NCBI GenBank assembly: GCA_025526995.1
Contig: JAHLKG010000004.1
Location: 1 to 64,000 of the forward strand
Direction of reading: 5' to 3'
DNA: 64,000 bases
From: Powellomyces hirtus
Lineage: Eukaryota; Chytridiomycota; Chytridiomycetes; Spizellomycetales; Powellomycetaceae
Shown here in pieces: positions 3,426-32,288 of the stretch (position 1 is its first letter; each line of letters opens with the position of its first letter). The position numbers and the translations under genes are program-made. The notes below the pieces were generated by a model. The model searched no databases. It was not told where the DNA came from and was given only the letters and a program-made list of their open reading frames with translations.

Positions 3426-4879
3426 TTGCCAACCTCACACATTGGCGCTATTTCTTGCTTTACTTTCTTATGTAATGCCCAAATAGACCGGTTGAGAATG
3501 CTTGACAAATTCTGGGCCAAGTACGATACAAGGCAGTGGGGTAGACGCATTTTACAACGGAGACTGGAACAAAAAGAAGATGTGGAAAGAAAAACAGCAA
3601 GAAAGCGCCTCCGCAACCGTGACCGCCTTAGAACACTCGGACAAGAGCGTCTACTTCGAGACTATTTCAGGCTGATTGCATCTACAGTGAAAAGGATTTT
3701 AGGCGCCGATTCCGAATGTCACGCCAGCTTTTCCTGCGTATTCAAGCAGATCTGTGCAAAAGTGACCGTTACTTTAAACCAGTAAGTACGCTACCCGTTG
3801 GCCACGCAGTATGTTTGTATTAATCACAACCTCTGCAATAGCGTTGTGACTGTACAGGACTTACTGGTCTCTCATCCGAACAAAAGCTTACTGCCGCACT
3901 ACGCATGCTCGCCTACGGTGTTGCAGCAGATGCTGTGGACAAGTATGTTCGCTGCGCCGAAGCTACTGCAACAGTGGCATTACACCGCTTCTGTGCTGCC
4001 ATTGTGCACATCTATGCCGCTACTTACCTGAGACCGCCAAACCAAAATGACCTAAATCATATATTGCAAATCAACAGGCAACGTGGTTTTCCTGGACTGC
4101 TTGGTTCTCTGGACTGCATGCCCTGGGCATCGAAAAACTGTTCTCGAGCGTGGGCCGGTCAATTTCAAGGCAAGGAAAAGGTTCTGACGATTATTTTGGA
4201 AGCGGTTGCAACCTACGATTTACGAATTTGGCATTGCTCTTTCGGCGTTCCCGGCGCTAACAATGACATTAATGTTTTGGACCGCTCCCCTCTCTTTGAT
4301 GACCAACTGGCTGGTTGCACACCAAACCTTGATTACGAGATTAATGGACGTCAATACACTCAAGGTGCGTTGCGTGGTGCGTGGTGCGTATCTGCACATT
4401 GCAGTGGTACAGTACTGCATAGCACATACTCACGAAGAGCATTACTAGGATATTATTTGGTGGATGGAATATACCCTCCTTGGGCGATGTTTGTTCAGAC
4501 GTTCTCACAGCCTGACTGCGAAAAGAAGAAGTTTTTTGCCCAAATGCAAGAGGCAGTGCGCAAAGACATAGAGCGTGCCTTTGGAGCATTACAAGTGCGA
4601 TGGCACATTATTCAACGGCCCACTCGTGGATGGCATTGCGCGCAACTGGGAAATATCATGAAAACCTGTGTGATTTTGCACAACATGATTATTGAGGATC
4701 AAGGAGATGCGGCAATGGAAGATATAGCAGAGGATTTTGCCGACATTAACATCTCCCTGGGCAGTCGCAAAGAAACATCGCAACAAATAAGGAGAAAAAC
4801 ATTGCGTGACTCTGTGCTTCATCATCAGTTGCGCGCAGACCTGATACAACACTTATGGGAATGGAAGGGTAGTCAATAA
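3426..4879 (+). pseudogene. PIF/Harbinger transposase (DDE superfamily), with introns and a frameshift
   Basis: Catalyses cut-and-paste movement of the element. Exon 1 encodes a basic N-terminus (about 3498-3671); the frame then shifts by two bases into the conserved FRRRFRM segment (about 3672-3785). A plausible intron is 3786-3857 (exact phase match), then the frame runs through RMLAYGVAADAVD, the first catalytic Asp in GSLDCMPW, the second in PGANNDINVLD, and after a second intron (about 4363-4449, rejoining as QGYYLVDG) the Glu in RKDIERAFGALQVRW. The DDE residues are intact. The shift near 3671 could be an unrecognised intron rather than damage. The stop is at 4877-4879. Confidence 0.75.
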
Positions 4880-11130: not shown

Positions 11131-12910
11131 CACAAATGCTGTGGAAGCATTACACGTCTGGGTCCGCCAAGAAAAACCGTATGAAGCCCTCATCGACTCT
11201 GGCGCTACGGACCACATGACACCTCACAAAGCGACCTTGGATCACTCAACCGTGTACAGTGATGTCAGAGCTGTTATGCTTGCTGACAAAACATCACTAC
11301 CCTCTACAGTTCGAGGTACGGTACGAGTAGAAGTTAACGACTATCTGAATCCGCTCAAGTTGGGCGGAGTCCTGCATGTGCCAGGACTACGACGAGATCT
11401 CGTATCGGTAGCAAAATGCAACGATCAAGGCGTTGACGTGCTCTTCAAATCGAATGGAGACGTCATTTTCACGCGAGACGGCAAAGAAATCGCCAAAGGC
11501 GTACGCCGCAACAACACGTATTACCTGCAAGGTACGCTGCTGTCTGAAAGTCTGTGGACAGATTCAGAAGCATGCACTGTCGAAGTCTCTCCTACACTCG
11601 CTCATGCTCGTCTTGGACACGTTGGCAAACACGTCCTGGAGAAGATGGCATCGGTTACGGACGGTTGGTCCGTAGTGGGGGATCTAAGCGACTTCAAAGA
11701 TTGTGAAGCCTGCGTGTTAGGAAAAGCCGCTCGTCTTCCATTCTCCCCTGGTAACGTTGAAACCAGGGAGATCTGTGAGCTGATTCATTCAGACCTACAA
11801 GGACCATTTCGCATCCCTGGTTACGAAGGATCACGCTATTCACTGGAGTTCATTGAACACACATCCAGATACGTGACTGTTTTCCCTATTCCTTCAAAGG
11901 ATTCAGCAGTCATACTCGACAAGTTTCTCATTTACAAGGCTTGGATTGAGAAACAGACTGACCGACACATCAAGATTCTACGCACGGATCGAGGCACCGA
12001 ATACTTTGGCGAAGTTCTAGAGTACCTATTGGAAAATGGTATCACTCATCAAAAGTCCGCGGCCTATTCGAGTCAGCAAAACGGGATTGCCGAACAATGG
12101 CATTGCACGGCGCTGGACAGGGTCCGCGCCACCTTTGCGGATACGAAACTACCTCGAAGATTCTGGCCTGCTTTACTGGTAGCGGCTGGATACATCTATT
12201 CCCTTACGTACAACCGCATCAACAAGAAGACGCCGCACGAAATACTGTTTGGCCGGCGTCCTGATGTCGCCCATCTTAGGCGTATCGGTTCCGTGGCGTA
12301 TTCTGTTCTAACAAGCAAAGGACGCGATAAAATGGGGAATCGAGCGAAGAAGGCTTACTTGGTAGGCTATGCTCAACCCTCAGGTACCAAGGGGTATCTG
12401 GTATGGGATCCTGTCACTGACAAGGTCGAAGTGTCACGAGACGTGATCTTCAAAGAAGACTTGGGACTCGAACCCAAATATCAGCAGGATCCAGCACATC
12501 TTGACCTTCTAGATGAGGAGAGTCAGGAGGATGACGTCGAATACACCGTGGAGGCAATTATCGACGAGCGCCGCAGTAAGGTGCACACAAAAGAGTACTT
12601 GGTTAAGTGGGAGGGATATCAAGAACCTACGTGGGAGTCCCGACTTTCACTACTCGATACTACCGCATTGGATGACTGGGAGAATCGAGTAGCCGCGTAC
12701 GATGTCGGCACACGTCGAAATGACCCCATTGCTGCATACGCCGCCCGCGCGCGGACTCAAGCAACGATCAACGAAGACGCCATGACATGGAAGCAAGCGA
12801 TGAAAACACCTCAGAAGGAGGAATTTCTCAAGGCTGCAGCATTGAGTACCAATCCCTGGTCGACAACGGTACATGGGAACTCACCAAGCGTCCACGTAAC
12901 AAGCACGTGA
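10409..12910 (+). CDS. Copia A gag C-terminus, protease, integrase and chromodomain
   Basis: One open frame of 833 codons. In order: gag C-terminal half, zinc knuckle (about residues 204-217), aspartic protease (LIDSGATDHMTPH, about 261-273), pre-integrase zinc finger (H-x3-H then CEACVLGKAARLPF), DDE integrase (HSDLQGPF, RTDRGTEYF, then Glu in IAEQWH), and a chromodomain (YTVEAIIDERRS to VKWEGYQEPTWE, about 12541-12640). The frame ends after a one-base loss near 12840 where the conserved KAAA-IEYQSLVDNGTW should continue, so reverse transcriptase starts in another frame. Presumably one polyprotein in the active ancestor. Confidence 0.85.
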   Translation: MKYEMVPPEFLVDFVATKLTGWAYTWWQSLSPNKRNEITTWHDFEDVDSGRTNTGLRSALLARFAPRNHTRDSLQKLRELRPKGRMDEYITQFNMLAFSLPKTPDYVLQDYFINALTPDLAALVQANEENITDLSSLQAAASRIAANMAKKPSGTTTDTRPGAAHTDASKKQKGGKNHGEKSTNGKKDKESTPSNKGQTQKSGCWACGDPKHRTQECEVLKKFKSEMEKNKTKQSSDGAVSTNAVEALHVWVRQEKPYEALIDSGATDHMTPHKATLDHSTVYSDVRAVMLADKTSLPSTVRGTVRVEVNDYLNPLKLGGVLHVPGLRRDLVSVAKCNDQGVDVLFKSNGDVIFTRDGKEIAKGVRRNNTYYLQGTLLSESLWTDSEACTVEVSPTLAHARLGHVGKHVLEKMASVTDGWSVVGDLSDFKDCEACVLGKAARLPFSPGNVETREICELIHSDLQGPFRIPGYEGSRYSLEFIEHTSRYVTVFPIPSKDSAVILDKFLIYKAWIEKQTDRHIKILRTDRGTEYFGEVLEYLLENGITHQKSAAYSSQQNGIAEQWHCTALDRVRATFADTKLPRRFWPALLVAAGYIYSLTYNRINKKTPHEILFGRRPDVAHLRRIGSVAYSVLTSKGRDKMGNRAKKAYLVGYAQPSGTKGYLVWDPVTDKVEVSRDVIFKEDLGLEPKYQQDPAHLDLLDEESQEDDVEYTVEAIIDERRSKVHTKEYLVKWEGYQEPTWESRLSLLDTTALDDWENRVAAYDVGTRRNDPIAAYAARARTQATINEDAMTWKQAMKTPQKEEFLKAAALSTNPWSTTVHGNSPSVHVTST

Positions 12911-15123
12911 TCGGCACAACATGGGTCTTTCGAACGAAGGTCAATCCCGATGGCACTTTTAACAAGTTCAAAGCCAGAGCAGTAGCTCAAGGCTTCTCTC
13001 AACAACCCGGTCGCGACTTTGGTGATACATATTTACCTACGCTACCATTCACAGCGCTACGCCTCTTCTTGGCGTATTGTGTCCAGCACGGGCTGGACAC
13101 CCACAGTATGGACGCTGTCACCGCCTTCCTTAACAGCGATATTGATAAGGATATCTATATCGAGCAGTTTGAGGGATTCGAAGATCCGGATCACCCCAAA
13201 GGCGATTGGGTCCTGAAGCTACTGAAAGCTCTCTACGGCCTGAAGCAATCACCTCTTCTTTGGTATGAGACCTTGAAGACTGCACTGTTGAAGCTCGGCT
13301 ACGAAGCGGTTTCTGTATGCCCGTGTATCTTTTTCAAGTACGCGACAGACGACCGTACACCTCCGTCGAACGACAATTTGGTCCTTATTCTCGTTTTCGT
13401 CGATGATCTGCTCATTGCAGCGAAGGATCCGGAGATTCTGGCGAACAGCAAGAAGGAGCTACATTCGAAGTTCAAGTTTACGGAACAAGGTCGCGTAACC
13501 AGTCACCTTGGTCTCGTTTACAAATATGATTTCGACTCTGCTGTCCGTACCCTCGAAATCTCAAATGTCAAGTACATCGACGACACTCTTGCACACTTCG
13601 GCTTGAGCGACTGCCATCCTGTCTCCACTCCATACGCCATGTCAGCGCGTAACCAACAACCAGAGGATTCGACCCCATTCACGAATCTGAAAATGTATCA
13701 GGAAGCAGTGGGGGTCCTCACTTGGGCATCCATCACATGGCAATGGGATATCGCCACTGCAGTCGGTTACGTTGCGTGCCGCGTCGCCGCACCTACCAAC
13801 TCCGACTGGAACAATGTTAAGCGCATTTTCCGCTACCTGAAGGGTACCCGCGATTATGCCCTCAAGTTTACATCCAAAAGAAATGATCCGCGTGGCCTAC
13901 GCGTATACACGGATGCGGACTATGCAGGAGAACTCACCGACCGGACGTCCACTACAGGCATTTTGGCCCTTTACAATGGGTTTCCTGTTCTGTGGAAAAG
14001 CAGCAAGCAGAAGTGCACCGCCCAAAGTACAACCAAAGCGGAATATATAGCTGCAAGTACCGGCCACAACGAAGCCAAATGGCTACGCCAACTCTTGGCG
14101 GAAGTTTTGGGACCTCAACCGGATTACAAATCTCGACCAGTCCCTCTCCATGTCGATAATCAGAGCGCCGGGGCCTTGATTCAGTCTAAGGCTATCAACC
14201 AACGCACCAAACACATCGACATTCGGTACCACGCTATACGCGATTCGTTCGCGAAGCAAATTATCGAAATCATCGACACCAATACGGACGATCAACTGGC
14301 GGACATCTTTACGAAGCCTTTTCCCACTGTGAAACATAAGGACACTGTCCTGAGGATTACGAATGGGACTCATATATTTGACGAGAGAATACGCAATGAG
14401 GGCGCGTCTACGGAAGCACACCAAGCTCAAGTGTTACTCGCTGAATGTCAGGAGAACTACTCACAACACTGGCTTACCTTGGCTACTACACCGCAATTGC
14501 GGAACCCGAAGCAATGCCTCCCAAGGAGGATGGGCCTGCCCCTCCTCCATCATCCTCATCGCTTGAGGGTGAGCGTCGGCTTGAAGAACCCGATGGTCCC
14601 TCCAACTCCTCGGCTGCCCCCTCCTCCTCTTCCTCATCATTATATGGAGCTTCACGCTCCAGGATGTCCCACATCCTTTTCACCTCCGCTACAGACTTCT
14701 TGTCCGCAGCCCTCTTCTTCTCCTGGGCCGCATCCTTGCCCTTCCCAACCGCCAGCTTCCGGCTCCGCCGGTCCTCTAGTATGGACCTCAGTCCATCAAG
14801 CGTCCCGGTCGCCCGTGCGCGACCCAGAGACGTCCCAGACCTCGCCCGGTCTTTCACCCGGTCTTTCGCCTGCTCGATGTGACGTTCAAGGACCCCTTGA
14901 CGGTCCTTCCGGTGGAACTGTCGGGCATGCGCTGCCGACATCGTTCGAATCTCCGCTCGGGACAACCCCGCAGCGGGTGCGCCTCCCTGTGGCGCAGAGG
15001 GCACCACTGACAACGGCACAGCAGGAGCTGTGGTTGTCGCAGGAGCGGTTACCGGCGGTCCTGTCTCTCTCGCCGTCTGCTTCGCTTTGCCCGAACCTGA
15101 CAACTACACCGGCACATAATTAG
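12787..15123 (+). CDS. Copia A reverse transcriptase-RNase H
   Basis: Copies the element RNA. The frame carries the full copia reverse transcriptase from VDNGTWELTKRP through the catalytic FVDD box (about 13400-13411) and RNase H (TDADYAG, ADIFTKPF, to about 14370). It is one base out of frame with the integrase ORF; the overlap at 12787-12910 makes either a mutation or, less likely, programmed frameshifting possible. The Pro/Ser-rich extension from about 14450 to 15123 lies opposite the antisense ORF and is probably not functional protein. Confidence 0.85.
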   Translation: MEASDENTSEGGISQGCSIEYQSLVDNGTWELTKRPRNKHVIGTTWVFRTKVNPDGTFNKFKARAVAQGFSQQPGRDFGDTYLPTLPFTALRLFLAYCVQHGLDTHSMDAVTAFLNSDIDKDIYIEQFEGFEDPDHPKGDWVLKLLKALYGLKQSPLLWYETLKTALLKLGYEAVSVCPCIFFKYATDDRTPPSNDNLVLILVFVDDLLIAAKDPEILANSKKELHSKFKFTEQGRVTSHLGLVYKYDFDSAVRTLEISNVKYIDDTLAHFGLSDCHPVSTPYAMSARNQQPEDSTPFTNLKMYQEAVGVLTWASITWQWDIATAVGYVACRVAAPTNSDWNNVKRIFRYLKGTRDYALKFTSKRNDPRGLRVYTDADYAGELTDRTSTTGILALYNGFPVLWKSSKQKCTAQSTTKAEYIAASTGHNEAKWLRQLLAEVLGPQPDYKSRPVPLHVDNQSAGALIQSKAINQRTKHIDIRYHAIRDSFAKQIIEIIDTNTDDQLADIFTKPFPTVKHKDTVLRITNGTHIFDERIRNEGASTEAHQAQVLLAECQENYSQHWLTLATTPQLRNPKQCLPRRMGLPLLHHPHRLRVSVGLKNPMVPPTPRLPPPPLPHHYMELHAPGCPTSFSPPLQTSCPQPSSSPGPHPCPSQPPASGSAGPLVWTSVHQASRSPVRDPETSQTSPGLSPGLSPARCDVQGPLDGPSGGTVGHALPTSFESPLGTTPQRVRLPVAQRAPLTTAQQELWLSQERLPAVLSLSPSASLCPNLTTTPAHN
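14486..15103 (-). CDS. Antisense ORF of copia A (205 aa, charged protein)
   Basis: Runs opposite to pol between the end of RNase H and the 3' LTR, starting MSGSGKAKQTARETG at 15103. The middle is rich in Lys/Arg/Glu with likely long helices (RQFHRKDRQGVLERHIEQ, AQEKKRAADKKSV), followed by an acidic run (NDEEEEEG) and a Ser/Gly tail. I recognise no domain. Compared with the A' copy (2332-2950) I count four substitutions in the body; three are silent in this frame while three change the residue in the opposite plus frame, which suggests this strand is the coding one. Function unknown. No introns are needed. Confidence 0.65.
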   Translation of the reverse strand: MSGSGKAKQTARETGPPVTAPATTTAPAVPLSVVPSAPQGGAPAAGLSRAEIRTMSAAHARQFHRKDRQGVLERHIEQAKDRVKDRARSGTSLGRARATGTLDGLRSILEDRRSRKLAVGKGKDAAQEKKRAADKKSVAEVKRMWDILEREAPYNDEEEEEGAAEELEGPSGSSSRRSPSSDEDDGGGAGPSSLGGIASGSAIAV

Positions 15124-15527: not shown

Positions 15528-17106
15528 TACCGAAGAACCCCAAACCTACAAACAAGCGCTCTCATCAGATGACGCGCTGAAGTGGACCGAGGCCATAAAT
15601 GCCAAATTGAAGTCCCTCCATACCAATGAAACATGGGAAGTCATTAACCCCAAATCCTTACCGCACAATCAACAGCCCATCCGCACCAAATGGGTATTCA
15701 AGATTAAGCGAGACCTGAATGGTTAACCCCAACGATACAAGGCCCGGCTTGTAGTGAAAGGCTTCGAACAACGCTACGGTATCGACTACAACGAAACCTA
15801 TGCTCCGGTTGCCAAGATTGCTACCCAACGCGTCCTTCTCGCTCTTGCCGCCAGCCTAGGCTTGAAATGCCATCAAATGGATGTAGTAACCGCATTCCTG
15901 AATGGGATTGATACCGAGACCATCCTAATCTATGCCCCTGAAGGCTCTGGCTTTCTGCCCGGGACCATCCTTCAACTCCGAAAGGCCCTTTACGGTCTGA
16001 AACAAGCCCCGTGCGAATGGTACTCCCTACTTCACAAAGAACTGACTTCTCTGGGATTCAAGCGCCTGGCAAATGACAATGCCGTTTACATCAGAACTCT
16101 ACCTGAAAGTGACTCATCGCAGTACATCTCCGTCTACGTTGACGATCTCCTCATTTTCGCAAAGACCGAATCGGAGATCTCATCAATCAAGACATCCCTG
16201 CACAACGAGTTCAACATGACAGACCTAGGCGAAGTCAACCACTACCTTGGAATGAGAGTTCGACGCGATTACTCAAGGCACGTCATCTACCTCGATCAAG
16301 AGTCATATGTAAATGACATTCTCGAGCGCTTTGGTATGCAAGACTGCAAGCCCGTCAATACACCGATGGACCAGACCAAGCTCGAACCCTACGAAGTCGA
16401 AAATACAAAGACCTCACCTAACCTGCAAGAAGGAGAATATCGCGAAATCGTTGGTTCTCTCATGTACCTGATGATATGCACGTGTCCTGACATCGCTGTC
16501 GCGGTCAGTATGCTTTCTTGCTTCGCAAGCAACCCTTCGCCTCAACATCTGCAAGCTGCAAAGCGCGTCCTTCGCTACCTATGGGGAACATCAAATTACA
16601 GCCTCTGCATCGGCGGAAATAACGTTACCCTTCACGGCTACAGCGATGCCGATTGGGGAAACAATATCATTGATCGACGGTCAATCACTGGCTACCTTTT
16701 CTACATTGGAAATGCGGGCCCCGTTACTTGGGCTTCGAAGCGCCAACCCACCGTTGCTCTCTCATCTACCGAAGCTGAATATATGGCACTTTCCTTCGCC
16801 ACTCAAGAAACAATCTGGCTTCGCTCACTTCTGCAAGAACTCCAAATCCCCGAATATCTCGATGAAAATGCTCGACCCACAACGATCTACAAAGATAATC
16901 AGTCATGCATCTCGCTGGCAATGAATCCAGTGCATCACGCCCGTACCAAGCACATCGACATTCGACACCACTTCATCCATGATCACGTCGACAAGGAGAT
17001 TCATCTGGAGTACTTACCTACCGCTGAGATGGTCGCCGACTCACTTACGAAGCCCTTACCGGCCCCGGCATTCAAACACCATCGCGAAAACATGTGCATC
17101 AAGCAC
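15528..17106 (+). pseudogene. Copia B reverse transcriptase-RNase H, interrupted
   Basis: Reverse transcriptase with YVDDLLIF (about 16136-16159) and RNase H (GYSDADWG, then ADSLTKPLPAP), about 90% identical by eye at protein level to copia C. An in-frame TAA at 15724-15726 separates the N-terminal segment (KWVFKIKRDLNG) from PQRYKARLVVKG; copia C has the same stop at the same place. Residue differences from C are mostly Arg-to-Cys/Trp, i.e. C-to-T at CpG. Gypsy G1 cuts the ORF between CIKH and YDN; the last 21 codons are at 24865-24929. Confidence 0.85.
17102..17106 (+). repeat. Target-site duplication of gypsy G1 (left copy)
   Basis: AGCAC, repeated at 24865-24869 on the other side of the element; removing G1 and one copy restores the copia B reading frame. 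Confidence 0.9.
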
Positions 17107-17381
17107 TGTAATAATACTAGGTCCGTTGCCAGAGTCTAGCCTCCTATTCGGGAATTCCCTATCTCTAATTCTACTGTAAGATCCCTAAGTCTTGAATACG
17201 CCCTCGTTGGAGTATTCCTACTTTTCTTCTGGACCGCAAGGCGGTCCCGGTCACGTGATGGCCATCCGTGGCCATCCCTGAGGTCTAGTACCCTTCGGGA
17301 TGCTGACGCTAGCATCCATCTCGCGCGGGGCCCTTCCCGACGCGTATCTAGGCTTAGGCTGGCGAGCCACGCCTCATTACA
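17107..17381 (-). repeat. 3' LTR of gypsy G1
   Basis: 275 bp, on the minus strand TGTAATGAGG to TATTATTACA. The adjoining internal bases (17382-17389) read AAGGGGGG on the minus strand, the polypurine tract. Confidence 0.9.
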
Positions 17382-17794
17382 CCCCCCTTAGATTTGCGAC
17401 TATCTCTTAGGCTCGAATCTCTCCAGCGGGGCGAAGCTTGCCTAAGCCAGATGGCGGCGGGTGAACGGATGCTGACGTGGTTGTGGGAAGATGAGGCTGG
17501 GGAGGCGGCCCTGGTGCGGGTCACGTCGCGGTAGTCTCCGGCGGGTAGTCTCCGCCCTTCGTGGTGCGCGAAGTCGTCGGAAAGTCTATTTCTCTCTTTG
17601 CAGGGGCCCTAGATGAATCATGAGTAGCTTCCTCCATGCGGATTTCGATAAGTAACATCTGCTGCGCTCCGTAGGGGATGAAACACTAACACCTGAATTT
17701 CCGAGCGTTCCCAAGCAGGTCGAGCCTTTAAAAGGTACTGCCCGTTGAATCTCCCCCTCTCGCTCTTCTTTTCTTTGTAGCTCGACGAACTCAC

Positions 17795-17824
17795 ACCACA
17801 CACACACACATACGCACACACACC
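17795..17824 (+). repeat. CA microsatellite upstream of the antisense gene
   Basis: A (CA)n tract with a TACG interruption directly before the first ATG of the antisense gene; present also in G3 (about 204-230 as GT). CT/CA-rich leaders are common in fungal 5' UTRs. Confidence 0.6.
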
Positions 17825-17877
17825 ATGGCTGACACCCCCAACAACTCTCCTCCCCCCCCGACACCACCACCACCACC

Positions 17878-18572
17878 ATGGGCAAGCGCCGGCCCGCCCA
17901 GCAACTTGCGAAAGGCGCAACCAAGCGGGCCCAGCCCGCCCGGGTGAGTAGGGGTCGGTGCTCGTCCTCGGCTGTGGCAACTCGTCTCATGTTCCCCGTC
18001 TTCCCTTGTTGTCTACAGGACCCCTCGGTCCATGAAAAGTCCACCCCCGAGAGGTCGGCCGACTTGCCCTCTTGCTGGAAGTGCAACCAATTCCGCAAGA
18101 GCAAGATGTTCACATCGGAATGCCACCATTTGGTGTGCCGGCCCTGCATCGTGGCGGCGGCCGATGACACGGTATGTCCCCCCCCCTTTGCTGAGAGGCG
18201 GCCTGATGTCTTCCTAACGGTGTGGTTCCTTTGTTCCTTTGCTTTCCAGAACGACGGCCCTCAGGGCCAGTTGACGTGCGGCGCCCCCCACTGCGACCGG
18301 GTCCTCTTCTTTGCGGCCATCCCCGCCGGGTGCCAGTTCGCTGGCTGCAACCACGTCGGAGCGGACCTCCGCATGTTCCCATGCAACCACCTCCACTGCA
18401 TGGGCCACGTCCGCGCGTAAGTAGTACTCTTCGGCCTGCTGCTGTCTTACCTGACTAACTCAGCTCTCTTCGCAGCAAGATGAACGTGGCAAATTACACC
18501 CCCCTCCGGTGCGGGTTGGGCGACCGGTGCCACGGCAATCGGTGCCAATTCTCCTTCACCAAGCTTGGTTGA
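17878..18572 (+). CDS. Antisense spliced RING-like cysteine-rich protein carried by gypsy G1
   Basis: Four exons, 17878-17943, 18019-18171, 18250-18416 and 18476-18572, joined by introns of 75, 78 and 59 bp with GTGAGT/CTACAG, GTATGT/TTCCAG and GTAAGT/CGCAG sites; all phases agree and give 160 residues. Exon 2 encodes C-x2-C (CWKC), C-x-H (ECHH) and C-x2-C (VCRPC); the last pair C-x4-C (CGAPHC) is in exon 3, so the C3HC4 RING forms only after splicing. More Cys/His clusters follow (FPCNHLHCMGH, CGLGDRCHGNRC). RING proteins are usually ubiquitin ligases; that role here is inference. It lies opposite gag-pol, between the chromodomain end and the 3' LTR. An alternative upstream ATG at 17825 leads into the wrong frame. 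Confidence 0.7.
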
Positions 18573-18821
18573 TTAGTTCTTTCCCCCCCCTTTCTTGTAT
18601 ATACTTTCGATTGTTGTCCGTTGCTCCCTTGGGGCCTGGCCCTTGGGCCGTAATCAAACTCAGTACCAAAATCTCATCGCCGTACTTGCCTTCTCATCGC
18701 TGTGCTCCCTTGAGCCTTGTAGCATTTCGTATGCGTCCGCTGTGTCCAATGTCACTCGGCTTCCTCCCGGCTATGGTGCTCATGGTAGATGCCCTGCATC
18801 ACACTTCCCCGTTGGGAAGAC

Positions 18822-19365
18822 CGCCCAGCGGTTCCCCGGCCATCGTCCAATGATGCCGGTATCTCACCTAGTGAGGTCTACTGCCTCGCAGTCTTCGGCT
18901 CATCGCCCAGCGATCCCGGCATCTCCCCCAGCGAGATATGCTGCCCAGCAGCCTTCGGCCATCGTCCAACAATGCCGGCATCTCACCTCGTGAGGTCTAC
19001 TGCCTCGCAGTCTTCGGCTCATTGCCCAGCGATCCCGGCATCTCGCCCAGCGAGGTATGTCACCCAGCGACCTTCGGCCCATCGTCAAACGATGCCGGTA
19101 TCTTGGCCGAAGCCCTTCTCTTCCCCTTCGCGTGGGTATGTACTACAGCCATGGTCCCCGCGGGTCTCGAGGTACGCCGCCATGCAAATCTGGTGCCAGT
19201 CACCTTGCATCGGCAAGCCGTCGGCTCATCGCCCAGCGATCCCGGCATCTCACCCAGTGAGGTATGCTGCCCAGCAGCCTTCGGCCATCGTCCAACGATG
19301 CCGGCATCTCGCCCAGCGAGGTATGCTGCCCAGCAGCCTTCGGCCATTGTCCTGCCGGGATCTCG
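18822..19365. repeat. Minisatellite in the 3' region of gypsy G1
   Basis: Tandem units of roughly 55-60 bp (core CCGGCATCTCGCCCAGCGAG, then TGCTGCCCAGCAGCCTTCGG) at 18822-19106 and again 19217-19365, separated by a unique 110-bp stretch. No gene seen between 18573 and 19427 besides this repeat. Confidence 0.75.
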
Positions 19366-19427
19366 CACTATAATGTCCTCTACCTCAAGTAGTATATCTC
19401 TTGTTAATTTACGGTACAGCTCGCTAT

Positions 19428-19913
19428 CTAGGTTCTCTTACGTCGCCTGGCTGCTAGCCTTTGGCCGTGGTCCTCTCCGGGGTGCTCCCGGAGCCATTCT
19501 TCCAGTGCGGTCGTCCCCTTCACATGTGCATATGGCTCCCACGTGTTCTGGGTGCTGTCGTAACCTGTCCACTTGACTAAGAACTGCTCGGTGTTCCTGT
19601 GCCATCTGGCATTTAGGATCTTGTCCACTTGGTAGGTCTCCTGACCGTCTTCGTCCTTCTTGGGCTCAGGCGGAGCGGTGACCTGTCTGTACGGGGTACC
19701 GCCTGGGTCATGGTACCGTCTCAGAATGTTGACATGAAAGACTGGGTGCAACCCGGTGAACTCCTTGGGTAGTTCGAGCTCGTAGGTGTCAGGATGCGGC
19801 CCCTTGCCGCGTACTGTGAATGGCCCAATCCATTGCTCAGCCAGCTTTTTGTTCCTTGTGGTGACGCTGGTAATCGCAATACCCTCACGATGGAGTAAGA
19901 CCTTGTCACCCTC
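19428..19913 (-). pseudogene. Gypsy G1 integrase C-terminus and chromodomain
   Basis: Same frame as the integrase block upstream but separated from it by a TGA at 19914-19916. It has the GPF-type integrase end (QWIGPFTVRGKGPHPDTYEL), LHPVFHVNILRRYH, and a chromodomain (YQVDKILNARWHRN, then FLVKWTGYDSTQNTWEP), which in chromoviruses guides integration to marked chromatin. Ends at 19428. Confidence 0.85.
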
Positions 19914-20624
19914 TCAGTATGCTTCCGTGTGCTTCTTGCGGTCGTAGTACTTTGCCTGCTGGTCCTGTGCGTCTCGGAGCTGTTGCTGCATGATGCGCCT
20001 CACGTCAGCGAATTCCTTAACCCGTCTCTCCATGGCGGTTCGTGCCGATTGCCTTATCATCTCTCCGGGGTTAGGTGCTACCCATTGGTTCGGTACCCGG
20101 GGGACGCGGCCTAGGTCAATCTCGAAAGGGGATAGTCCCGTCGACGTCTGCGGCGTTCGGTTGTAGTTGTACTCGAGTGTGGGGAGTAAACTCTTCCAGT
20201 TGGAGCTGGCATAGTCAAGAAAGGGGCCCATGATTCCCTTGATCATCTTGATGGCATTCTCCGCCTTGCTGTCGGTCTGTTGGTGTCGTGCCGACGAGAG
20301 TTCTTGCTTGACGGCGAGTGCCCGCATGAGGCACCGCCAGAATTCTGATAGCCACTTGGGGTCCCGATCGCTCACAATGGTGTGGGGTAACCCCGTGTGG
20401 CGAAATGCCTGTTCCAGAAAGAGTTGAGCCATCTCCTGAGCTGTAGCACGTGTGTTAGTAGGTAGAAGTATCACGCGGCATGAAAGGTAGTCGACGATGA
20501 GGAGTACGGCGTCTGCCGTCTTGGTCAGTCTCTCGCCGGTGTGGTGCGGAGGGTTATTCGGCACGTCAGGCTCTACCCGAGGTTCCCTCCCCTTAGAGCC
20601 TGACGTGGGGAAGAATATATCCAT
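19914..20624 (-). pseudogene. Gypsy G1 integrase catalytic core
   Basis: DDE integrase inserting the DNA copy: first Asp in LLIVDYLSCR, second in IVSDRDPKW, Glu in DSKAENAIKMIKG. In frame with the reverse transcriptase block but behind a TGA at 20688-20690 that follows the zinc-binding HHCC end (CPTCQRHK). Both stops sit where Arg (CGA) would fit, consistent with CpG deamination. Confidence 0.85.
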
Positions 20625-20687
20625 GCCGATTTGTTGCCAACGAGCGTTGGGGATCGGTAAGCTGCGGAGGAAACCGATCGGCGCGGT

Positions 20688-23087
20688 TCACTTGTGACGT
20701 TGGCAGGTAGGGCAGGTGCGGACATATTGGTACACATCACGTTCCATGTGGGGCCAGTAGTACGACTCCAGAAGTTTGGCTAGCGTCCATTGGACACCGG
20801 AGTGACCACCGTTCGCGAGGGAGTCGTGATGAATCTGAAGGAGTGGCCCCCGCAAGCTGTCGGGGACGTACCGACGGTCATGGTACATCAAGAATCGGTG
20901 CGGAGGGGAGTCCACTGTCCGGAATCGGCGTGCATGGCCGGATAGGTTCTCCGGGGGACTGTTGATGGTTAGTAAGATGTTTTGGCCGAAATCATCCGAT
21001 GCGAGCGCTTGGGTCCAGTCCGCATCGGTCGGCATGTGCATCGTGACGGGCTTCTCCGTCTGCACAATGGCGGTGACCACATCGATCTTGGCCTGGCAGG
21101 TTGCACACTTGGGGGCGTAAGTCGGGTCGCGACTGAGGAAGTCAGCGATCGAATTCCATGTGCCGGGGAGGTATTCCACTGAGAAACCGAACTGTTGGAG
21201 GAACTCGACCCAGCCTGCTTGGCGACGTGACAGGTGGGGTTGTTCCTGGAGGTAGATCAGGGATTTGTGGTCAACAAACGCGCGGAATGGGCGGCCGATG
21301 AGGTAATGGCGGTTGGCGCGTATGGGTTTGACTAGTCCCAGCAGTTCTTGTTCATGCACGGGGTATCGGGTCTCGGTGGGTTGCATCTTGCGGGAGTAGT
21401 ATGTCACCGGGCGAAGTTGCGGGAGGTTGGCTAAGCCCGATTTGGTGGTTGGTAGTGGGTGAGGGTAAGGGAAATCCCCTTTGGCCGGCTGCGCCAGCCA
21501 TCCGCCGTAGGCGTAGCCCGATGCGTCCGTGAACAAGTAGGTGTCGAGCGCCGGGTCGAAGTACGCTAGGGTGGGTGCCGAGGAGCATAATTCCTTTAAG
21601 CGATTGAACGCTCGATCTTCCTCGTCACCCCACTGCCATGGGCGGTTGCCGGATTGCAGATTCGTTAGGGGTAGGGCAATCTGTGCATACTCGGGGATGT
21701 ATTCCTTGACATAGTTGACGAGGCCCATGAAGCTTAGGAGCTCCAGGGAGTTGGTCGGGCGAGGTCGTTCCCGGACCGCGGTCACCTTGGAGGGGGCGAT
21801 ACTTAGGCCATCCTTGCCGACTCGGTGGCCGCAGAACTCGACTTCGTCAACCGCCCATTGACATTTGCTGGGTTTGACGTGGAGGCGATGTTCCGTCAAG
21901 GTCTTGAGGACCTCGTCGACGTGCTGAATGTGCGAACTCATGTCGGTGCTGAATATGAGGATATCGTCGAGGTATGAGATCACGTAGGCGTCGTACTTGT
22001 CGCCCAAGAGCTTGTTGGTTAGTCGCTGGAATGTAGCAGGTGCATTAGTTAAGCCGAAAGGTAGAACATTGTATTCGAAGTGTCCAAAACGTGTTCGGAA
22101 TGCTATTTTCTCCCTATTTTCCGGTCGGATCATGATGCAGTGGTACGCGTCGCGGATGTCGATCGCGGTGAATACCCGCATGTTGACAAGCCTGTCGCGC
22201 AGCTCCGAGAGGTTCGGAAGTGGCGTGGCATCCTTGTGAGTCATCTTGTTCAGTGCCCGGTAGTCAATGCAGCAGCGTAATCCACCGTCCTTCTTTGGGG
22301 CAAACAGGACGGGGGCGCCCCACGGGCTGCGAGAGTGTGAGATCCAACCCTTGTCGATTAAGCGTTGCATTTGCTGGCTGAGTTCGTCCAGCTCGTCCGG
22401 GCTCAAGTGCCGAAGTGGCTGCATCACGGGCTTGGAACCGGGTTCGAGCCGAATGGTGAAGTTGTCCTCGCCTCGGTCCGGAGGCATGCCTGACTGCTCG
22501 GTGAATAACGTCGTGACGTATTTCTCTAGGGTCGGTCGGAGTGGATGGTCGGCCGCCAGCGCCTCTAGCGGGTCCTCTTGATCTGCCGCCTTGGCTTCGG
22601 CGTTGGTGTGGCGTCGCTCCACCAAGATCGCCCTCTTCTTGGCGTCGATCGTTCGTACGAATTGAGCCTCTGCGACTGGAATCGCATCTACAATGTGTAC
22701 CTCAAAAACGCCGGTTATCTCGCCCTTCTTCATCAAGCGTTTCCATTGCTTGGCCGTGTAGATTCCCTCTGCATTGAGTGCTGGCTTCGCTGGCTGGAAT
22801 CTGCGGGGCCGTATCTCTCGTGGGGAGAGCAGGCGGGCAGCGCACGTGGACGGTGCTTCCCAATGGCGATTAGTCGATTTGGCTCGAAGGCTGAGGGTCT
22901 GGCCGTCATGGTAAAACGTCATCGTTGGGAAGCCTTCTTGATCGAAAAGCCCTCGGACGTCCAATCCCAATATGAACGGCAAGCCGAGTATGACATCGAC
23001 CCTGATCGGTGCGACCACAAACGGTACGGTGTCTTCCCGGTAGGTAATCTTCTCCTCGGTGAACACCAAGAGGTCCCCACAGGTCAT
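20688..23087 (-). CDS. Gypsy G1 reverse transcriptase, RNase H and integrase zinc domain
   Basis: 799 codons. Begins downstream of the protease, then reverse transcriptase (WGAPVLFAPKKDGGLR, LPFGLTNAPATFQ, catalytic YLDD near residue 366), RNase H (LFTDASGYAYGGWLA), connection region, and the integrase N-terminal zinc finger (H-x3-H, CPTCQRHK). Longer and more intact than the other pol blocks. The protease lies just upstream (about 23160-23235, active-site segment ILIDTACNTLIIS with Asp-Thr-Ala), broken by at least two stops between gag and this block. Confidence 0.88.
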   Translation of the reverse strand: MTCGDLLVFTEEKITYREDTVPFVVAPIRVDVILGLPFILGLDVRGLFDQEGFPTMTFYHDGQTLSLRAKSTNRHWEAPSTCAARLLSPREIRPRRFQPAKPALNAEGIYTAKQWKRLMKKGEITGVFEVHIVDAIPVAEAQFVRTIDAKKRAILVERRHTNAEAKAADQEDPLEALAADHPLRPTLEKYVTTLFTEQSGMPPDRGEDNFTIRLEPGSKPVMQPLRHLSPDELDELSQQMQRLIDKGWISHSRSPWGAPVLFAPKKDGGLRCCIDYRALNKMTHKDATPLPNLSELRDRLVNMRVFTAIDIRDAYHCIMIRPENREKIAFRTRFGHFEYNVLPFGLTNAPATFQRLTNKLLGDKYDAYVISYLDDILIFSTDMSSHIQHVDEVLKTLTEHRLHVKPSKCQWAVDEVEFCGHRVGKDGLSIAPSKVTAVRERPRPTNSLELLSFMGLVNYVKEYIPEYAQIALPLTNLQSGNRPWQWGDEEDRAFNRLKELCSSAPTLAYFDPALDTYLFTDASGYAYGGWLAQPAKGDFPYPHPLPTTKSGLANLPQLRPVTYYSRKMQPTETRYPVHEQELLGLVKPIRANRHYLIGRPFRAFVDHKSLIYLQEQPHLSRRQAGWVEFLQQFGFSVEYLPGTWNSIADFLSRDPTYAPKCATCQAKIDVVTAIVQTEKPVTMHMPTDADWTQALASDDFGQNILLTINSPPENLSGHARRFRTVDSPPHRFLMYHDRRYVPDSLRGPLLQIHHDSLANGGHSGVQWTLAKLLESYYWPHMERDVYQYVRTCPTCQRHK

Positions 23088-23350
23088 CTTCGTTGCACCG
23101 TAGTTTCCCGCTCTATCGCCCCATCGGACCTCCAGCGGAGTTGGAGAGGTCTAGGTCCGGATGCCGTGCTTGGCTGCCCAAGTGTCACTGATGATCAGGG
23201 TGTTACACGCGGTATCGATTAGGATGCGGGCAAAGTGCCCTCATATCTTCCCGTGAACCACAAATGTCTTCTTGTGGATGCGGGGTCCCGGCCTGTCCGT
23301 GGGGATCTTGTCTTGCATTCGGGGTTGGGTTACTGAGACGGTGCAAATGT

Positions 23351-24562
23351 TCAGCACCCGGGGCGAAAATCCGAGCTGTTGACTGAGCCCCCGTCGCTGA
23401 CCGCGTCGTCCCCGGACTCTTCGGTGATCTCTACAGGGGCGGCGAACGTTCTATGCTCACCGGTCTTACCTTTACCTGCTGAGCACCCACGGGCATAGTG
23501 CCCCTTGCCTCCGCAGTTGAAACATTTGTTGCGTTCATGACGTTCATTATAGGTGATGCGCTTGCGGTCTGAGATCCCTTGGTGGTTGTCCGTACCGCGC
23601 GTGGGACGACCTGAGCCATAGGGGGTGTGGCGCCCACGTTCTCGTGCTTGATAGTTCCCTCGGTGTACCTGGGCCGGCTGGACTGCGGCGTACTGACGTC
23701 TTCTCCCGTCGGGGGTCACCCGCGCAAGGTTGTCCGCATAGCCTCGAATCTTGTAGCATAACAGGGCTTCGTTCTGTAGCTCGGTGATCGGGATCTCGGC
23801 ACCGTTGTTCCTCATGATCGCGGCATAGCAGTGGTCTCGAATGCGCTGGCCGACGTGGTTGGTCGAGAATCCGGTCAAGAAGTAGTCGCGCTCTTGCCAT
23901 GGGGTAAGTCGCTCCTTATCGTCGAGCATTGCGATCTGGGCCCGAAGGGTATTGAACTTGGCGATATACTCCGATATGCTATTAGTGAAAACCAGCCGCT
24001 TCATCTTTGCTTCTGCGGTGTTTCGTAAGTTGGCGGGGTAGAAGCGGATGCGGAGGATCCTCGTGAATTCTTCCAATGTCGTGGGCTGGTCGCCGGCATC
24101 TCTGAGCATTTGCCACCATTCGTTGGCGGTTTCCTTGAGGTACCCCGAGATGTGGTCGAAGTCCCGGTGGTCCGTCCTGAAGTCAGTTGCCTCAAGGTAG
24201 TGCGTGTGGACCTTCAAAAACTCATCGACCTTCGACACCATTTCTTCACTGTTCCCTTTTCCGTCAAAGTGTGTCAGCTGCTTGCGAAGGTTCTTGCGGC
24301 GTTCCTTCTCGGCTTGCATTCGTGCGCGGTTTTCTTCTGCCAGGATGATGTCGACGTGCGGTGTTGCAACCGCTGGTTGGACTGGAGTCGGAATCCTTGA
24401 GAGAAGGGCTTCGAAGCGGGCCTCTCCCATTGCGATCTGTTCCTGCAGTAGGTGTTGGGTCTCCGCCAATTGTGCAGCCAACATTGCGACGGGGTTGTCG
24501 GTCGGTGTGTCGACTTCGGGTTCTCCTACTGCCATTGGGCTGTTCCTGGTGCTATGTGCCAT
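23351..24562 (-). CDS. Gypsy G1 gag
   Basis: 403 codons, intact. Capsid/nucleocapsid protein with an N-terminal coiled-coil-like leader (ETQHLLQEQIAMGEARFEAL), a capsid core (FDGKGNSEEMVSKVDEFL, LKETANEWWQMLRDAG), and one CCHC zinc knuckle (CFNCGGKGHYARGC) near residue 360, followed by an acidic tail. Start at 24562 is 28 bases inside the 5' LTR/primer site. Gag is the only uninterrupted sense gene of the element. Confidence 0.88.
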   Translation of the reverse strand: MAHSTRNSPMAVGEPEVDTPTDNPVAMLAAQLAETQHLLQEQIAMGEARFEALLSRIPTPVQPAVATPHVDIILAEENRARMQAEKERRKNLRKQLTHFDGKGNSEEMVSKVDEFLKVHTHYLEATDFRTDHRDFDHISGYLKETANEWWQMLRDAGDQPTTLEEFTRILRIRFYPANLRNTAEAKMKRLVFTNSISEYIAKFNTLRAQIAMLDDKERLTPWQERDYFLTGFSTNHVGQRIRDHCYAAIMRNNGAEIPITELQNEALLCYKIRGYADNLARVTPDGRRRQYAAVQPAQVHRGNYQARERGRHTPYGSGRPTRGTDNHQGISDRKRITYNERHERNKCFNCGGKGHYARGCSAGKGKTGEHRTFAAPVEITEESGDDAVSDGGSVNSSDFRPGC

Positions 24563-24577
24563 TGTTGTCGTCTACGG

Positions 24578-24590
24578 GGTGGTGCTACCA
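24578..24590 (-). promoter_or_regulatory. Primer-binding site of gypsy G1
   Basis: Minus strand TGGTAGCACCACC directly after the 5' LTR, nearly the same as in G2 (7491-7504) and close to the TGGTAGCGCC site used for initiator tRNA-Met 3' ends. Confidence 0.65.
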
Positions 24591-24864
24591 TGTAATAATA
24601 CTAGGTCCGTTGCCAGAGTCTAGCCTTCTATTCGGGAATTCCCTATCTCTAATTCTACTGTAAGATCCCTAAGTCTTGAATACGCCCTCGTCGGAGTATT
24701 CCTACTTTTCTTCTGGACCGCAAGGCGGTCCCGGTCACGTGATGGCCATCCGTGGCCATCCCTGAGGTCTAGTACCCTTCGGGATGCTGACGCTAGCATC
24801 CATCTTGCGCGGGCCCTTCCCGACGCGTATCTAGGCTTAGGCTGGCGAGCCACGCCTCATTACA
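24591..24864 (-). repeat. 5' LTR of gypsy G1
   Basis: 274 bp, about four differences from the 3' LTR at 17107-17381. Followed by the right target duplication AGCAC (24865-24869). Confidence 0.9.
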
Positions 24865-24929
24865 AGCACTACGACAACACGATCATGCCAATGACGAAAG
24901 CGTCCATGACGGAGCTCCCGAATGAGTAA
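24865..24929 (+). pseudogene. Copia B pol, last codons after the gypsy insertion
   Basis: Continues the RNase H C-terminus as HYDN...MTKASMTELPNE and stop at 24927-24929, matching copia C. Confidence 0.85.
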
Positions 24930-29660: not shown

Positions 29661-31100
29661 TTACTCATTCGGGAGCTCCGTCATGGACGCTTTCGTCATT
29701 GGCGTGATGTTGTTGTCGTAGTGCTTGATGCACATGCTTTCGCGATGGTATTTGAATGCTGGGGCCGGTAAAGGCTTCGTAAGTGAGTCGGCTACCATTT
29801 CAGCGGTGGGTAAGTACTCCAGGTGAATCTCCTTGTCGATGTGATCACGAATGAAGTGATGTCGAATGTCGATGTGCTTGGTACGGGCGTGATGCACGGG
29901 ATTCATTGCCAACGAGATGCATGACTGATTGTCTTCGTAGACCGTTGTAGGTCGAGCATTCTCATCGAGATATTCGGGGATTTGGAGTTCTTGCAGAAGT
30001 GAGCGAAGCCAGATTGTCTCTTGAGTGGCGAATGAAAGTGCCATGTATTCAGCTTTGGTAGATGAGAGAGCAACGGTGGGTTGGCGCTTCGAAGCCCAAG
30101 TAACAGGGCCCGCATTTCCAATGTAGAAAAGGTAGCCAGTGATTGACCGTCGATCAATGATGTTGTTTCCCCAGTCGGCATCGCTGTAGCCGTGGAGGGT
30201 GACGTTATTTCCGCCGATGCAGAGGCTGTAATCTGATGTTCCCCGTAGGTAGCGAAGAACGCGCTTTGCAGCTTGCAGATGTTGAGGCGAAGGGTTGCTT
30301 GCGAAGCGAGAAAGCATACTGACCGCGACAGCGATGTCAGGACGCGTGCATATCATCAGGTACATGAGAGAACCAACGATTTCGCGATATTCTCCTTCTT
30401 GCGGGTTAGGTGAAGTCTTTGTATTTTCGACTTCATAGGGTTCGAGCTTGGTCTGGTCCATCGGAGTGTTGACGGGCTTGCAATCTTGCATACCAAAGCG
30501 CTCGAGGATGTCATTTACATATGACTCTTGATCGAGATAGATGACGTGCCTTGAGTAGTCGCGTCGAACTCTCATTCCCAGGTAGTGGTTGACTTCGCCT
30601 AGGTCTGTCATGTTGAACTCGTTGTGCAGGGATGTCTTGATTGACGAGATTTCCGATTCGGTCTTTGCGAAAATGAGAAGATCGTCGACGTAGACGGAGA
30701 TGTACTGCAATGAGTCACTTTCAGGTAGAGTTCTGATGTAGACGGCATTGTCATTTGCCAGGCGCTTGAATCCCAAAGAAGTCAGTTCTTTGTGAAGTAG
30801 GGAGTACCATTCGCGCGGGGCTTGTTTCAGACCGTAAAGGGCCTTTCGGAGTCGAAGGATGGTCCCGGGCGGAAAGCCAGAGCCTTCAGGGGCATAGATT
30901 AGGATGGTCTCAGTAACAATCCCATTCAGGAATGCGGTTACTACATCCATTTGATGGCATTTCAAGCCTAGACTGACGGCGAGAGCGAGAAGGACGCGTT
31001 GGGTAGCAATCTTGGCAACCGGAGCGTAGGTTTCGTTGTAGTCGATGCCGTAGCGTTGTTCGAAGCCTTTGACTACAAGCCGGGCCTTGTATCGTTGGGG
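29661..31100 (-). CDS. Copia C reverse transcriptase-RNase H
   Basis: Frame from PQRYKARLVVKG through HQMDVVTAFLNG, catalytic YVDDLLIF and RNase H (GYSDADWG, ADSLTKPLPAP) to MTELPNE. Open apart from the TAA at 31101-31103 at its N-terminal side. Same frame as the integrase block, so only one codon separates them. More intact than copy B. Confidence 0.88.
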   Translation of the reverse strand, partial: PQRYKARLVVKGFEQRYGIDYNETYAPVAKIATQRVLLALAVSLGLKCHQMDVVTAFLNGIVTETILIYAPEGSGFPPGTILRLRKALYGLKQAPREWYSLLHKELTSLGFKRLANDNAVYIRTLPESDSLQYISVYVDDLLIFAKTESEISSIKTSLHNEFNMTDLGEVNHYLGMRVRRDYSRHVIYLDQESYVNDILERFGMQDCKPVNTPMDQTKLEPYEVENTKTSPNPQEGEYREIVGSLMYLMICTRPDIAVAVSMLSRFASNPSPQHLQAAKRVLRYLRGTSDYSLCIGGNNVTLHGYSDADWGNNIIDRRSITGYLFYIGNAGPVTWASKRQPTVALSSTKAEYMALSFATQETIWLRSLLQELQIPEYLDENARPTTVYEDNQSCISLAMNPVHHARTKHIDIRHHFIRDHIDKEIHLEYLPTAEMVADSLTKPLPAPAFKYHRESMCIKHYDNNITPMTKASMTELPNE

Positions 31101-32288
31101 TTAACCATTCAGGTCTCGCTTAATCTTGAATACCCATTTAGTGCGGATGGGCCGTTGATTGTGCGGTAAGGATTTGGGGTTAATGACTTCCCATGTTTCA
31201 TTGGTATGAAGGGACTTCAATTCGGCATTTATGGCCTCGGTCCACTTCGGCGCGTCGTCTGATGAGAGCGCTTGTTTGTAAGTTTGGGGTTCTTCGGTAC
31301 TTGCAGCCGAAAGAGCGCTCGCCGTCTTCTCGTTGATGTAGTCAGCGAAGACTGTCAAATGATTGACAATTTCGAGCGGTTCCCATGTATTATCTTCGTC
31401 TTCGAATCCTAGCCATTTGCAGAGGAATTCGGGGCCTTCCGGGCCATCACGTGAGTCGAGAATCTCTTCGACTTTGTAGAGTTCTTCGGGCGGAATGTAG
31501 TCTTTCGCGAGTTCGAGTGCTGAGTTTTCGTCGAACGTTACATCGCGAGAAATGACTATTTCTTGACGGTTGTCATCCCAACAGCGGTAAGCGCTGTCAA
31601 ATTCGTAACCAATGAGTTTGAGACGTGTGGCGCGCGGTGCCAACTTTGAGACTTGTTTTCTCTTGACGAGATGCACGAAGGCATCGGCCCAGATCACACG
31701 AAGGTGAGAAAGTGAGGGCTCTTCGCCGTTGAGCCGTTCGTACGGCGAAATGTTGTTATTGGACTTGTGGGGTAGGCAATTCCGTAAGTAGACTGATGTA
31801 GCCGCTAACTTGGTCCAGAGTTGTTTCGGGATGCCGTATGAGTGTTCCAATGAACGAATGGTGTCGAACAGGGTGAGGTTGAACCTTTCAGCTACACTGT
31901 TAGACTGTGGGGAATCTGCAGCGGTGACTTCGTGCAGAATGCCCTTTTTCGAAATGAATTCTTTCAGATCGTGATTGACAAACTCCCCCCCTCGATCGGA
32001 ATGAAGTCGTCTGACCCTTTTGTTGGTCTGTTTTTCGATGAAATTGATGAATTCAATCAATTTTGCAGTAGATTCGCTCTTCGTCTTCAAGAAGAAGATC
32101 CATGTGAAGCGTGAATAGTCATCGATCACAACGAGGGCATATTTCTCATCGCCAACCGCGGGTATGTGCGGACCGTTTAGGTCGAAATGTAGGCGATCGA
32201 GTGGCGTCTTGGACCGTGTCATCGTACCGTTGAATGGTGAGCGCTTGTGCTTACCAAACTCGCAACCTTTGCAGAATTTGCATGACAA
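31101..32288 (-). CDS. Copia C integrase and chromodomain
   Basis: Starts in the pre-integrase zinc region (CKFCKGCEFGKHKRSPF), then DDE integrase (LHFDLNGPH, LHSDRGGEFV, Glu in VAERFNLTLF), a chromodomain (YKVEEILDSRDG, FLCKWLGFEDEDNTWEP, about 31360-31480), and the first part of reverse transcriptase (RTKWVFKIKRDLNG) before the TAA at 31101-31103. The N-terminal half of the polyprotein has been removed by deletion near 32280. Confidence 0.85.
   Translation of the reverse strand: MSCKFCKGCEFGKHKRSPFNGTMTRSKTPLDRLHFDLNGPHIPAVGDEKYALVVIDDYSRFTWIFFLKTKSESTAKLIEFINFIEKQTNKRVRRLHSDRGGEFVNHDLKEFISKKGILHEVTAADSPQSNSVAERFNLTLFDTIRSLEHSYGIPKQLWTKLAATSVYLRNCLPHKSNNNISPYERLNGEEPSLSHLRVIWADAFVHLVKRKQVSKLAPRATRLKLIGYEFDSAYRCWDDNRQEIVISRDVTFDENSALELAKDYIPPEELYKVEEILDSRDGPEGPEFLCKWLGFEDEDNTWEPLEIVNHLTVFADYINEKTASALSAASTEEPQTYKQALSSDDAPKWTEAINAELKSLHTNETWEVINPKSLPHNQRPIRTKWVFKIKRDLNG

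Follow-up and report, generated by a model that had tools for sequence, protein, structure and literature searches.

The window analyzed here, a stretch of 64,000 nucleotides from the chytrid fungus Powellomyces hirtus, contains a complete Ty3/gypsy element, termed G1, at positions 17107 to 24864 of the minus strand. The element is flanked by the target-site duplication AGCAC, which can be read directly from the sequence (17102 to 17106 on the left, with its partner at 24865 to 24869), and is bounded by a 5' LTR of 274 bp (24591 to 24864, minus strand, delimited from the LTR alignment and the sequence) and a 3' LTR of 275 bp (17107 to 17381, minus strand), which are 98.5% identical over 275 aligned columns. 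A putative polypurine tract adjoins the 3' LTR (17382 to 17389, minus strand; CCCCCCTT on the plus strand). The minus strand encodes gag (23351 to 24562), with a Retrotrans_gag domain and a CCHC knuckle scoring slightly below the cut-off, and pol (19428 to 23087, the lower end being computed from the translation), with reverse transcriptase (RT), RNase H, and integrase. The pol of this copy is decayed, with two in-frame stops within the stretch translated. About 2 kb separate the end of pol (~19428) from the 3' LTR, and this interval holds a gene on the plus strand, antisense to gag-pol, and, between this gene and pol, tandem repeats of ~60/119 bp (18837 to 19352).

The antisense gene comprises four exons and three GT-AG introns, all on the plus strand. 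Exon 1 (17825 to 17943) encodes a proline-rich start followed by a basic KRR...TKR stretch, exon 2 (18019 to 18171) contributes the RING-like ligands C-x2-C, C-x-H, and C-x2-C, exon 3 (18250 to 18416) adds a C-x4-C pair and a second Cys/His cluster, and exon 4 (18476 to 18572) ends with the stop codon TGA, giving a spliced product of about 178 residues. Intron 1 (17944 to 18018) measures 75 nt, intron 2 (18172 to 18249) 78 nt in the window copy, and intron 3 (18417 to 18475) 59 nt; the latter includes a branch-like ACTAAC, a candidate branch site. An earlier note, made from the window alone, had placed the splice junctions at 17943/18019, 18171/18250, and 18416/18476, and these positions proved exact, all of them GT-AG and with exon joins in phase. 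Its proposed start codon, ATG 17878, did not hold up, being found in only 34 of the 69 copies of the gene described below, whereas ATG 17825 is present in all 67 copies that have sequence there. Counted from 17825, exon 1 of the window copy spans 119 nt, which, owing to the length of its poly-C tract, puts that ATG out of frame, so that this particular copy can use only the inner ATG at 17878. ATG 17825 is out of frame in 13 of the 69 copies, that of the window included, as a result of exon 1 length differences that lie mostly in the poly-C tract, and 11 of these 13 possess the inner ATG. A TATA-like TTTAAAA some 95 bases upstream of the start (17727 to 17733, plus strand) is a candidate promoter element, and its two commonest forms together account for 47 of the 69 copies; a scan for sigma-70 promoters and terminators, using models unsuited to a fungus, found none.

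Several other elements were noted in the window. A Ty1/copia element at 29661 to 32288 (minus strand) has an integrase ORF with a chromodomain (rve, SH3_retrovirus, and Chromo, followed by RVT_2); chromodomains are a trait of Ty3 elements. By eye, a similar chromodomain-like stretch seems to be present in a copia ORF near 12530 to 12690. An ORF of 205 codons at 14486 to 15103 (minus strand) is antisense to copia, between the RT part and the right-hand repeat, and is perhaps a second antisense accessory ORF. A transposase ORF (Plant_tran / DDE_Tnp_4) is found at 3905 to 4879 on the plus strand. In keeping with a host in the Powellomycetaceae, one gene of the window has its nearest named relatives in Geranomyces (48%) and Fimicolochytrium (42%), two members of this family, and the named gag relative with the best score is that of Powellomyces hirtus, at 54% over 77% of the query.

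DNA and protein searches located the antisense gene, or part of it, at at least 69 places in the genome, the window included; this number includes some truncated copies and is a lower bound, because the scores of the protein search cover 150 of 219 candidates. Among copies with sequence at the respective site, GT donors were found in 65/67, 67/68, and 62/68 copies for introns 1 to 3, and AG acceptors in 65/67, 66/69, and 67/67. Intron 1 is 75 to 76 nt long in 67 of the 69 copies (75 nt in 65 of 67) and intron 3 is 59 nt long in 67, the copies outside these counts being cut short in the alignment, and the length of intron 2 lies between 68 and 81 nt in all 69. These lengths fit the proposal of the earlier note that introns in antisense orientation survive the RNA stage of a retroelement. 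Exon 2 has kept its length in 67 of 69 copies and exon 3 in 64, and the terminal TGA is likewise present in 64 (absent in two of the remaining copies, partial in one, and changed in two), while the surroundings of ACTAAC in intron 3 have their commonest form in 56. Intron 2 drifts: its length modulo 3 is unlike that of the window copy in 34 copies, and 40 of 69 contain in-frame stops.

A start codon, all six splice dinucleotides, an open frame, and a stop were retained in 35 of the 69 copies, and in 10 more when the inner ATG is taken as the start. The rule applied tolerates in-frame length changes and consequently passes copy L041, in which the start of exon 1 is altered by indels, as well as copies with a shorter exon 4. 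In the spliced frame, only 2 of 55 gap-free copies contain internal stops, versus 55, 55, 13, 55, and 55 of 55 in the five other frames. A sense (env-like) gene was also considered for this interval and discarded, since stops interrupt the minus frames (in 13, 55, and 55 of 55 copies), in which constraint specific to a frame does not go beyond the third-position mirror of the spliced frame. Copies L072 and L075 form a diverged subfamily in which exon 2 has a common stop; this subfamily may do without the gene or have a shorter version of it. A further stop, at the start of exon 4, is common to L031 and L045. A broken gene thus does not appear to have kept some lineages from multiplying.

Since CpG sites mutate fast, selection was assessed with context-corrected tests, with introns and UTR as the neutral reference. 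On a tree of 66 of the 69 copies, from which the truncated L057, L066, and L074 were left out, internal branches carry 106 missense changes where 223.4 are expected and 114 synonymous changes where 89.5 are expected, corresponding to an omega of 0.37, together with a single change in splice dinucleotides (7.6 expected) and one counted stop. The internal omega was 0.38 without L072 and L075 (64 copies) and 0.35 when four near-duplicates were omitted as well (60 copies); by exon, values for exons 1 to 4 were 0.13, 0.52, 0.27, and 0.74, that of exon 4 being based on few events. On terminal branches, omega was 0.71 and splice dinucleotide changes were close to expectation (10 versus 10.9), and 0 stops were seen where 7.1 were expected, for which simple neutral decay does not account. 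Pairwise comparisons, made on the 54 or 55 of 69 copies that are free of gaps, gave a mean NG86 dN/dS of 0.31 for the spliced frame (349 usable of 350 sampled pairs among 55 copies), and values of 0.19 to 0.22 against the diverged L072 and L075, whose gaps and stops were masked for this comparison. With growing distance between copies the ratio declines, from 0.68 among the closest pairs to 0.26 to 0.27 in the most distant bins. For comparison, the RT of the same gypsy family gave 0.17 to 0.25 in 20 copies, a sample drawn by taking 20 of 151 RT matches, dropping the short L096, and adding the window. A context-corrected test by frequency class on 40 copies showed depletion only where a variant occurs in at least three copies (omega of 0.46); singletons had an omega of 0.94 and doubletons one of 1.40, and the value for all variants was 0.78. 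Measured against introns, the depletion is milder than by NG86, as illustrated by L075 with a dN of 0.137 versus an intron p of 0.239.

The missense depletion, the kept splice dinucleotides, and the drifting intron 2 together indicate that the gene is spliced, coding, and selected during element multiplication, and there is little room for doubt that it is a real gene under selection at the protein level. The overall pattern is that of a gene that appears to be needed while the element multiplies and is largely free to decay after insertion. Random substitution and broken splice sites in the other copies, which the earlier note had named as the outcome that would speak against its reading, were looked for and the copies came out against them, yet there remain the two groups of copies with a common stop. 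The claim that an intron-bearing antisense gene belongs to the element was borne out by the conservation of both splice sites and protein across copies.

Selection might alternatively act on an antisense RNA involved in silencing or self-limitation, in which case the protein would be incidental. According to a passage of a review, antisense transcripts of LTR elements may be a source of siRNA and inhibit transposition (PMC7264820). Such an RNA would hardly explain codon-specific selection, given that the true frame has a ratio of 0.31 versus 0.75 to 1.71 in other frames, nor the drift of intron 2, and we regard this alternative as very unlikely. The exception among the other frames is frame -2 (0.33), which shares third positions with the spliced frame and is interrupted by stops in 55 of 55 copies.

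A different alternative concerns the product itself. In the window copy, the frame is open for 180 codons from 17878 to 18420, so that a single unspliced ORF could begin at 17825 or 17878, cross introns 1 and 2, and end with a TAA at the start of intron 3. Exactly such a read-through is on record: among 5.8 billion proteins (6 candidates), the search identified one relative, P0001, annotated as an "oncoid" of Powellomyces chytrid fungus MELD virus 1, which is a translation through introns 1 and 2 that terminates at the donor site of intron 3 and shows, over the full length, 95.9% identity to copy L020. P0001 hence belongs to the same gene family but differs from the gene model proposed here in being annotated as viral and in having introns 1 and 2 translated. 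Intron 1 by itself is not decisive on splicing, because its length is constant (75 nt in 65/67) and in-frame stops are few (3/67). Intron 2, with its stops in 40/69 copies and its shift modulo 3 in 34/69, contrasts with the downstream exon 3, which has kept its length in 64/69 copies and has an omega of 0.27; exon 4, which lies past the would-be stop, retains its Cys and TGA in most copies, and splice dinucleotides are conserved on internal branches. The drift of intron 2 between the kept exons 2 and 3 implies that the read-through protein is not the maintained product, and an intronless ORF was rejected on this ground; the chance that the unspliced form is nevertheless the functional one appears very small.

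The spliced protein is rich in Cys and His, and these residues are the least variable: the mean share of cells changed per position was 0.95% for Cys (14 positions), 1.8% for His, and 6.4% for others. Its best Pfam matches are RING families, all below gathering scores (16.3 bits at best versus 21), and zf-C3HC4 was matched in 6 of 6 members with a best E value of 0.0014, again below the Pfam cut-off; a search of NCBIfam gave no match. A profile of six copies run against the PDB retrieved PCGF5 (E value of 0.0033) and RING2 chains (0.2 to 0.51) over ligands 1 to 6, and the same run gave a CRISPR protein at 0.36, which marks the level of noise. RING-HC (C3HC4) fingers have eight zinc ligands with canonical spacing. 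In the antisense protein, ligands 1 to 6 fit this spacing and align with those of PCGF5 and RING2, the nearest RING-HC fingers, whereas the last pair, C-x4-C, is noncanonical, and beside this RING-like half-domain there are two further Cys/His clusters and the basic KRR...TKR stretch, a putative nuclear signal. The C3HC4 RING domain announced in the earlier note is therefore retained in part: the HMM search it had suggested placed RING families on top and the first six ligands agree, but no curated cut-off was reached and the last pair departs from the canonical form. An AlphaFold model of P0001 had a mean pLDDT of 35.1 and was not used. A zinc-binding RING-like fold is probable, a role as nuclear regulator has about an even chance, and a true ubiquitin ligase is a rather doubtful proposition.

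The annotation of P0001 raises the issue of origin, as the gene could have come from a MELD-type DNA virus and been taken over by the retrotransposon. The record of the one protein relative indeed assigns it to Powellomyces chytrid fungus MELD virus 1, on a contig of 21,205 bases. P0001 contains, however, the letters of introns, and its 95.9% identity to L020 over the whole length is within the range of the retrotransposon copies; at all 29 diverged copies, other parts of the gypsy 3' region match beside the gene; and scans of IMG/VR, from which the same or very near genomes may be missing, found no relative. Moreover, on C26 the G1 copy has an A32-like packaging ATPase at a distance of about 14 kb, and a public contig holding both is thus easily explained; it probably joins a G1 retrotransposon copy and an integrated virus. 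A viral source of the gene is accordingly considered very unlikely. A 2024 preprint in which "Oncoid" denotes a gene class states that nothing but short linear motifs defines this class (PMC11071296). As to the viral locus, L101 (3106 to 5971; G000:C26:291000-297500) has the A32-like ATPase between ORFs of 479 and 241 aa, neither of which matched any family, and when the viral-like ORFs of L101 were compared with PHROGs and the PDB, the ATPase alone was matched, in PHROGs. L101 is probably an integrated MELD/polinton-type virus, and four more A32-like places exist elsewhere in the genome. An LTR piece is present at 26 of the 29 diverged loci, in an unusual place in L075.

The gene could, finally, be a fragment of a host gene, captured once and carried as a functionless passenger. 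One-off captures are known in LTR elements, as noted in a section of PMC7264820, and L100 (G000:C34:4300-7300), the one unit examined of a sister family (RT 63 to 64%), has no relative of the gene. A passenger would not be expected to have its protein and splice sites under selection while the element multiplies, and the matches listed in the search of the fungus's own genome include no host relative (150 of 219 candidates were scored, so that weak host relatives could be missed). We regard the passenger reading as very unlikely. The sister family forms a head-to-tail array on C34 with a period of 4760 bases, its RTs being located at 2491, 7251, 12011, and 16771, and about 2 kb from the end of integrase to the next RT are left for LTR, gag, and protease. 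Further stretches probed for the gene in other gypsy copies or families (L097 to L099) consist mostly of other sequence.

We conclude that the retrotransposon very probably has an antisense accessory gene of its own, predicted to encode, after splicing, a basic protein that is rich in Cys and His, measures ~178 residues, and includes a RING-like half-domain. A promoter of the gene itself, situated between the LTR and the start codon, would drive transcription. The genomic RNA would carry the introns unspliced through reverse transcription because it represents the other strand. Since many copies have preserved the gene, its protein probably benefits the element; the protein would bind zinc, enter the nucleus, and act for the element, most likely by regulating element expression or by countering host silencing via protein or ubiquitin contacts, for which the regulation of HTLV-1 by HBZ offers an analogy. 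That it is a ligase directed against host silencing is a guess. The boldest form of this idea, namely, that a multi-intron gene hidden on the never-spliced strand encodes a RING ubiquitin ligase directed at a silencing or chromatin factor of the host, as an HBZ-like countermeasure evolved independently in early fungi, is unlikely, though not negligibly so.

Antisense genes at this position have precedents. Antisense ORFs between pol and the 3' LTR, termed aORF-3R, are described in passages on Grande (gene23), RIRE2, PvRetro13, and Retand (TRP28), as well as on brtn of the fungal element Boty (PMC7264820, PMC11963269). The window copy likewise has its ORF between pol and the 3' LTR and antisense to gag-pol, and its conservation, at at least 69 places and with a ratio of 0.31 versus 0.17 to 0.25 for RT, resembles that of other element proteins; position, antisense orientation, and conservation within the family are hence common to both, as far as the accounts of aORF-3R at hand go. 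For Grande, an antisense ORF with its own promoter has been shown, according to an excerpt of PMC7264820, and Retand, in the part of PMC11963269 that deals with it, has antisense ORFs plus, in about half of the elements, tandem repeats in the same region, which is also the region of the G1 repeats. Three conserved introns and a RING-like Cys/His product distinguish the G1 gene, none such being mentioned in the same accounts of aORF-3R. Among retroviruses, HBZ of HTLV-1 is a spliced antisense gene reported to down-regulate viral sense transcription, and APH-2 of HTLV-2 is reported to inhibit Tax2-driven LTR activation (both from a section of PMC3185765). These are, in that section, antisense genes at the 3' end of the element that are spliced and whose nuclear products dampen sense transcription. 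The HBZ transcript, which codes for a bZIP factor, has its start within the 3' LTR, however, whereas the G1 gene lies in the internal region and has three introns and Cys/His motifs. No bZIP family was among the matches listed for the antisense protein, and the likeness to HBZ proposed here is one of working alike only.

In view of aORF-3R and the HTLV genes, the kind of gene is known, and what look new are the three conserved introns, the RING-like product, and the chytrid element. A search of the literature, with subscription papers mostly outside its reach, retrieved no earlier RING or intron-bearing antisense gene in an LTR retrotransposon, and the available sections of PMC5408684, PMC8365987, PMC4227169, and PMC6338049 contain none. 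Antisense accessory ORFs of LTR elements are without known functions, and a 2020 review, in one of its passages, calls for a search for spliced antisense transcripts (PMC7264820). The G1 family, with its dozens of natural copies, provides evidence at the sequence level for both splicing and selection, and its product lends itself to a testable biochemical hypothesis. The family further suggests that the public viral "oncoid" annotation corresponds to a retrotransposon gene read through its introns, and it shows how the introns of an antisense gene can outlast the RNA stage.
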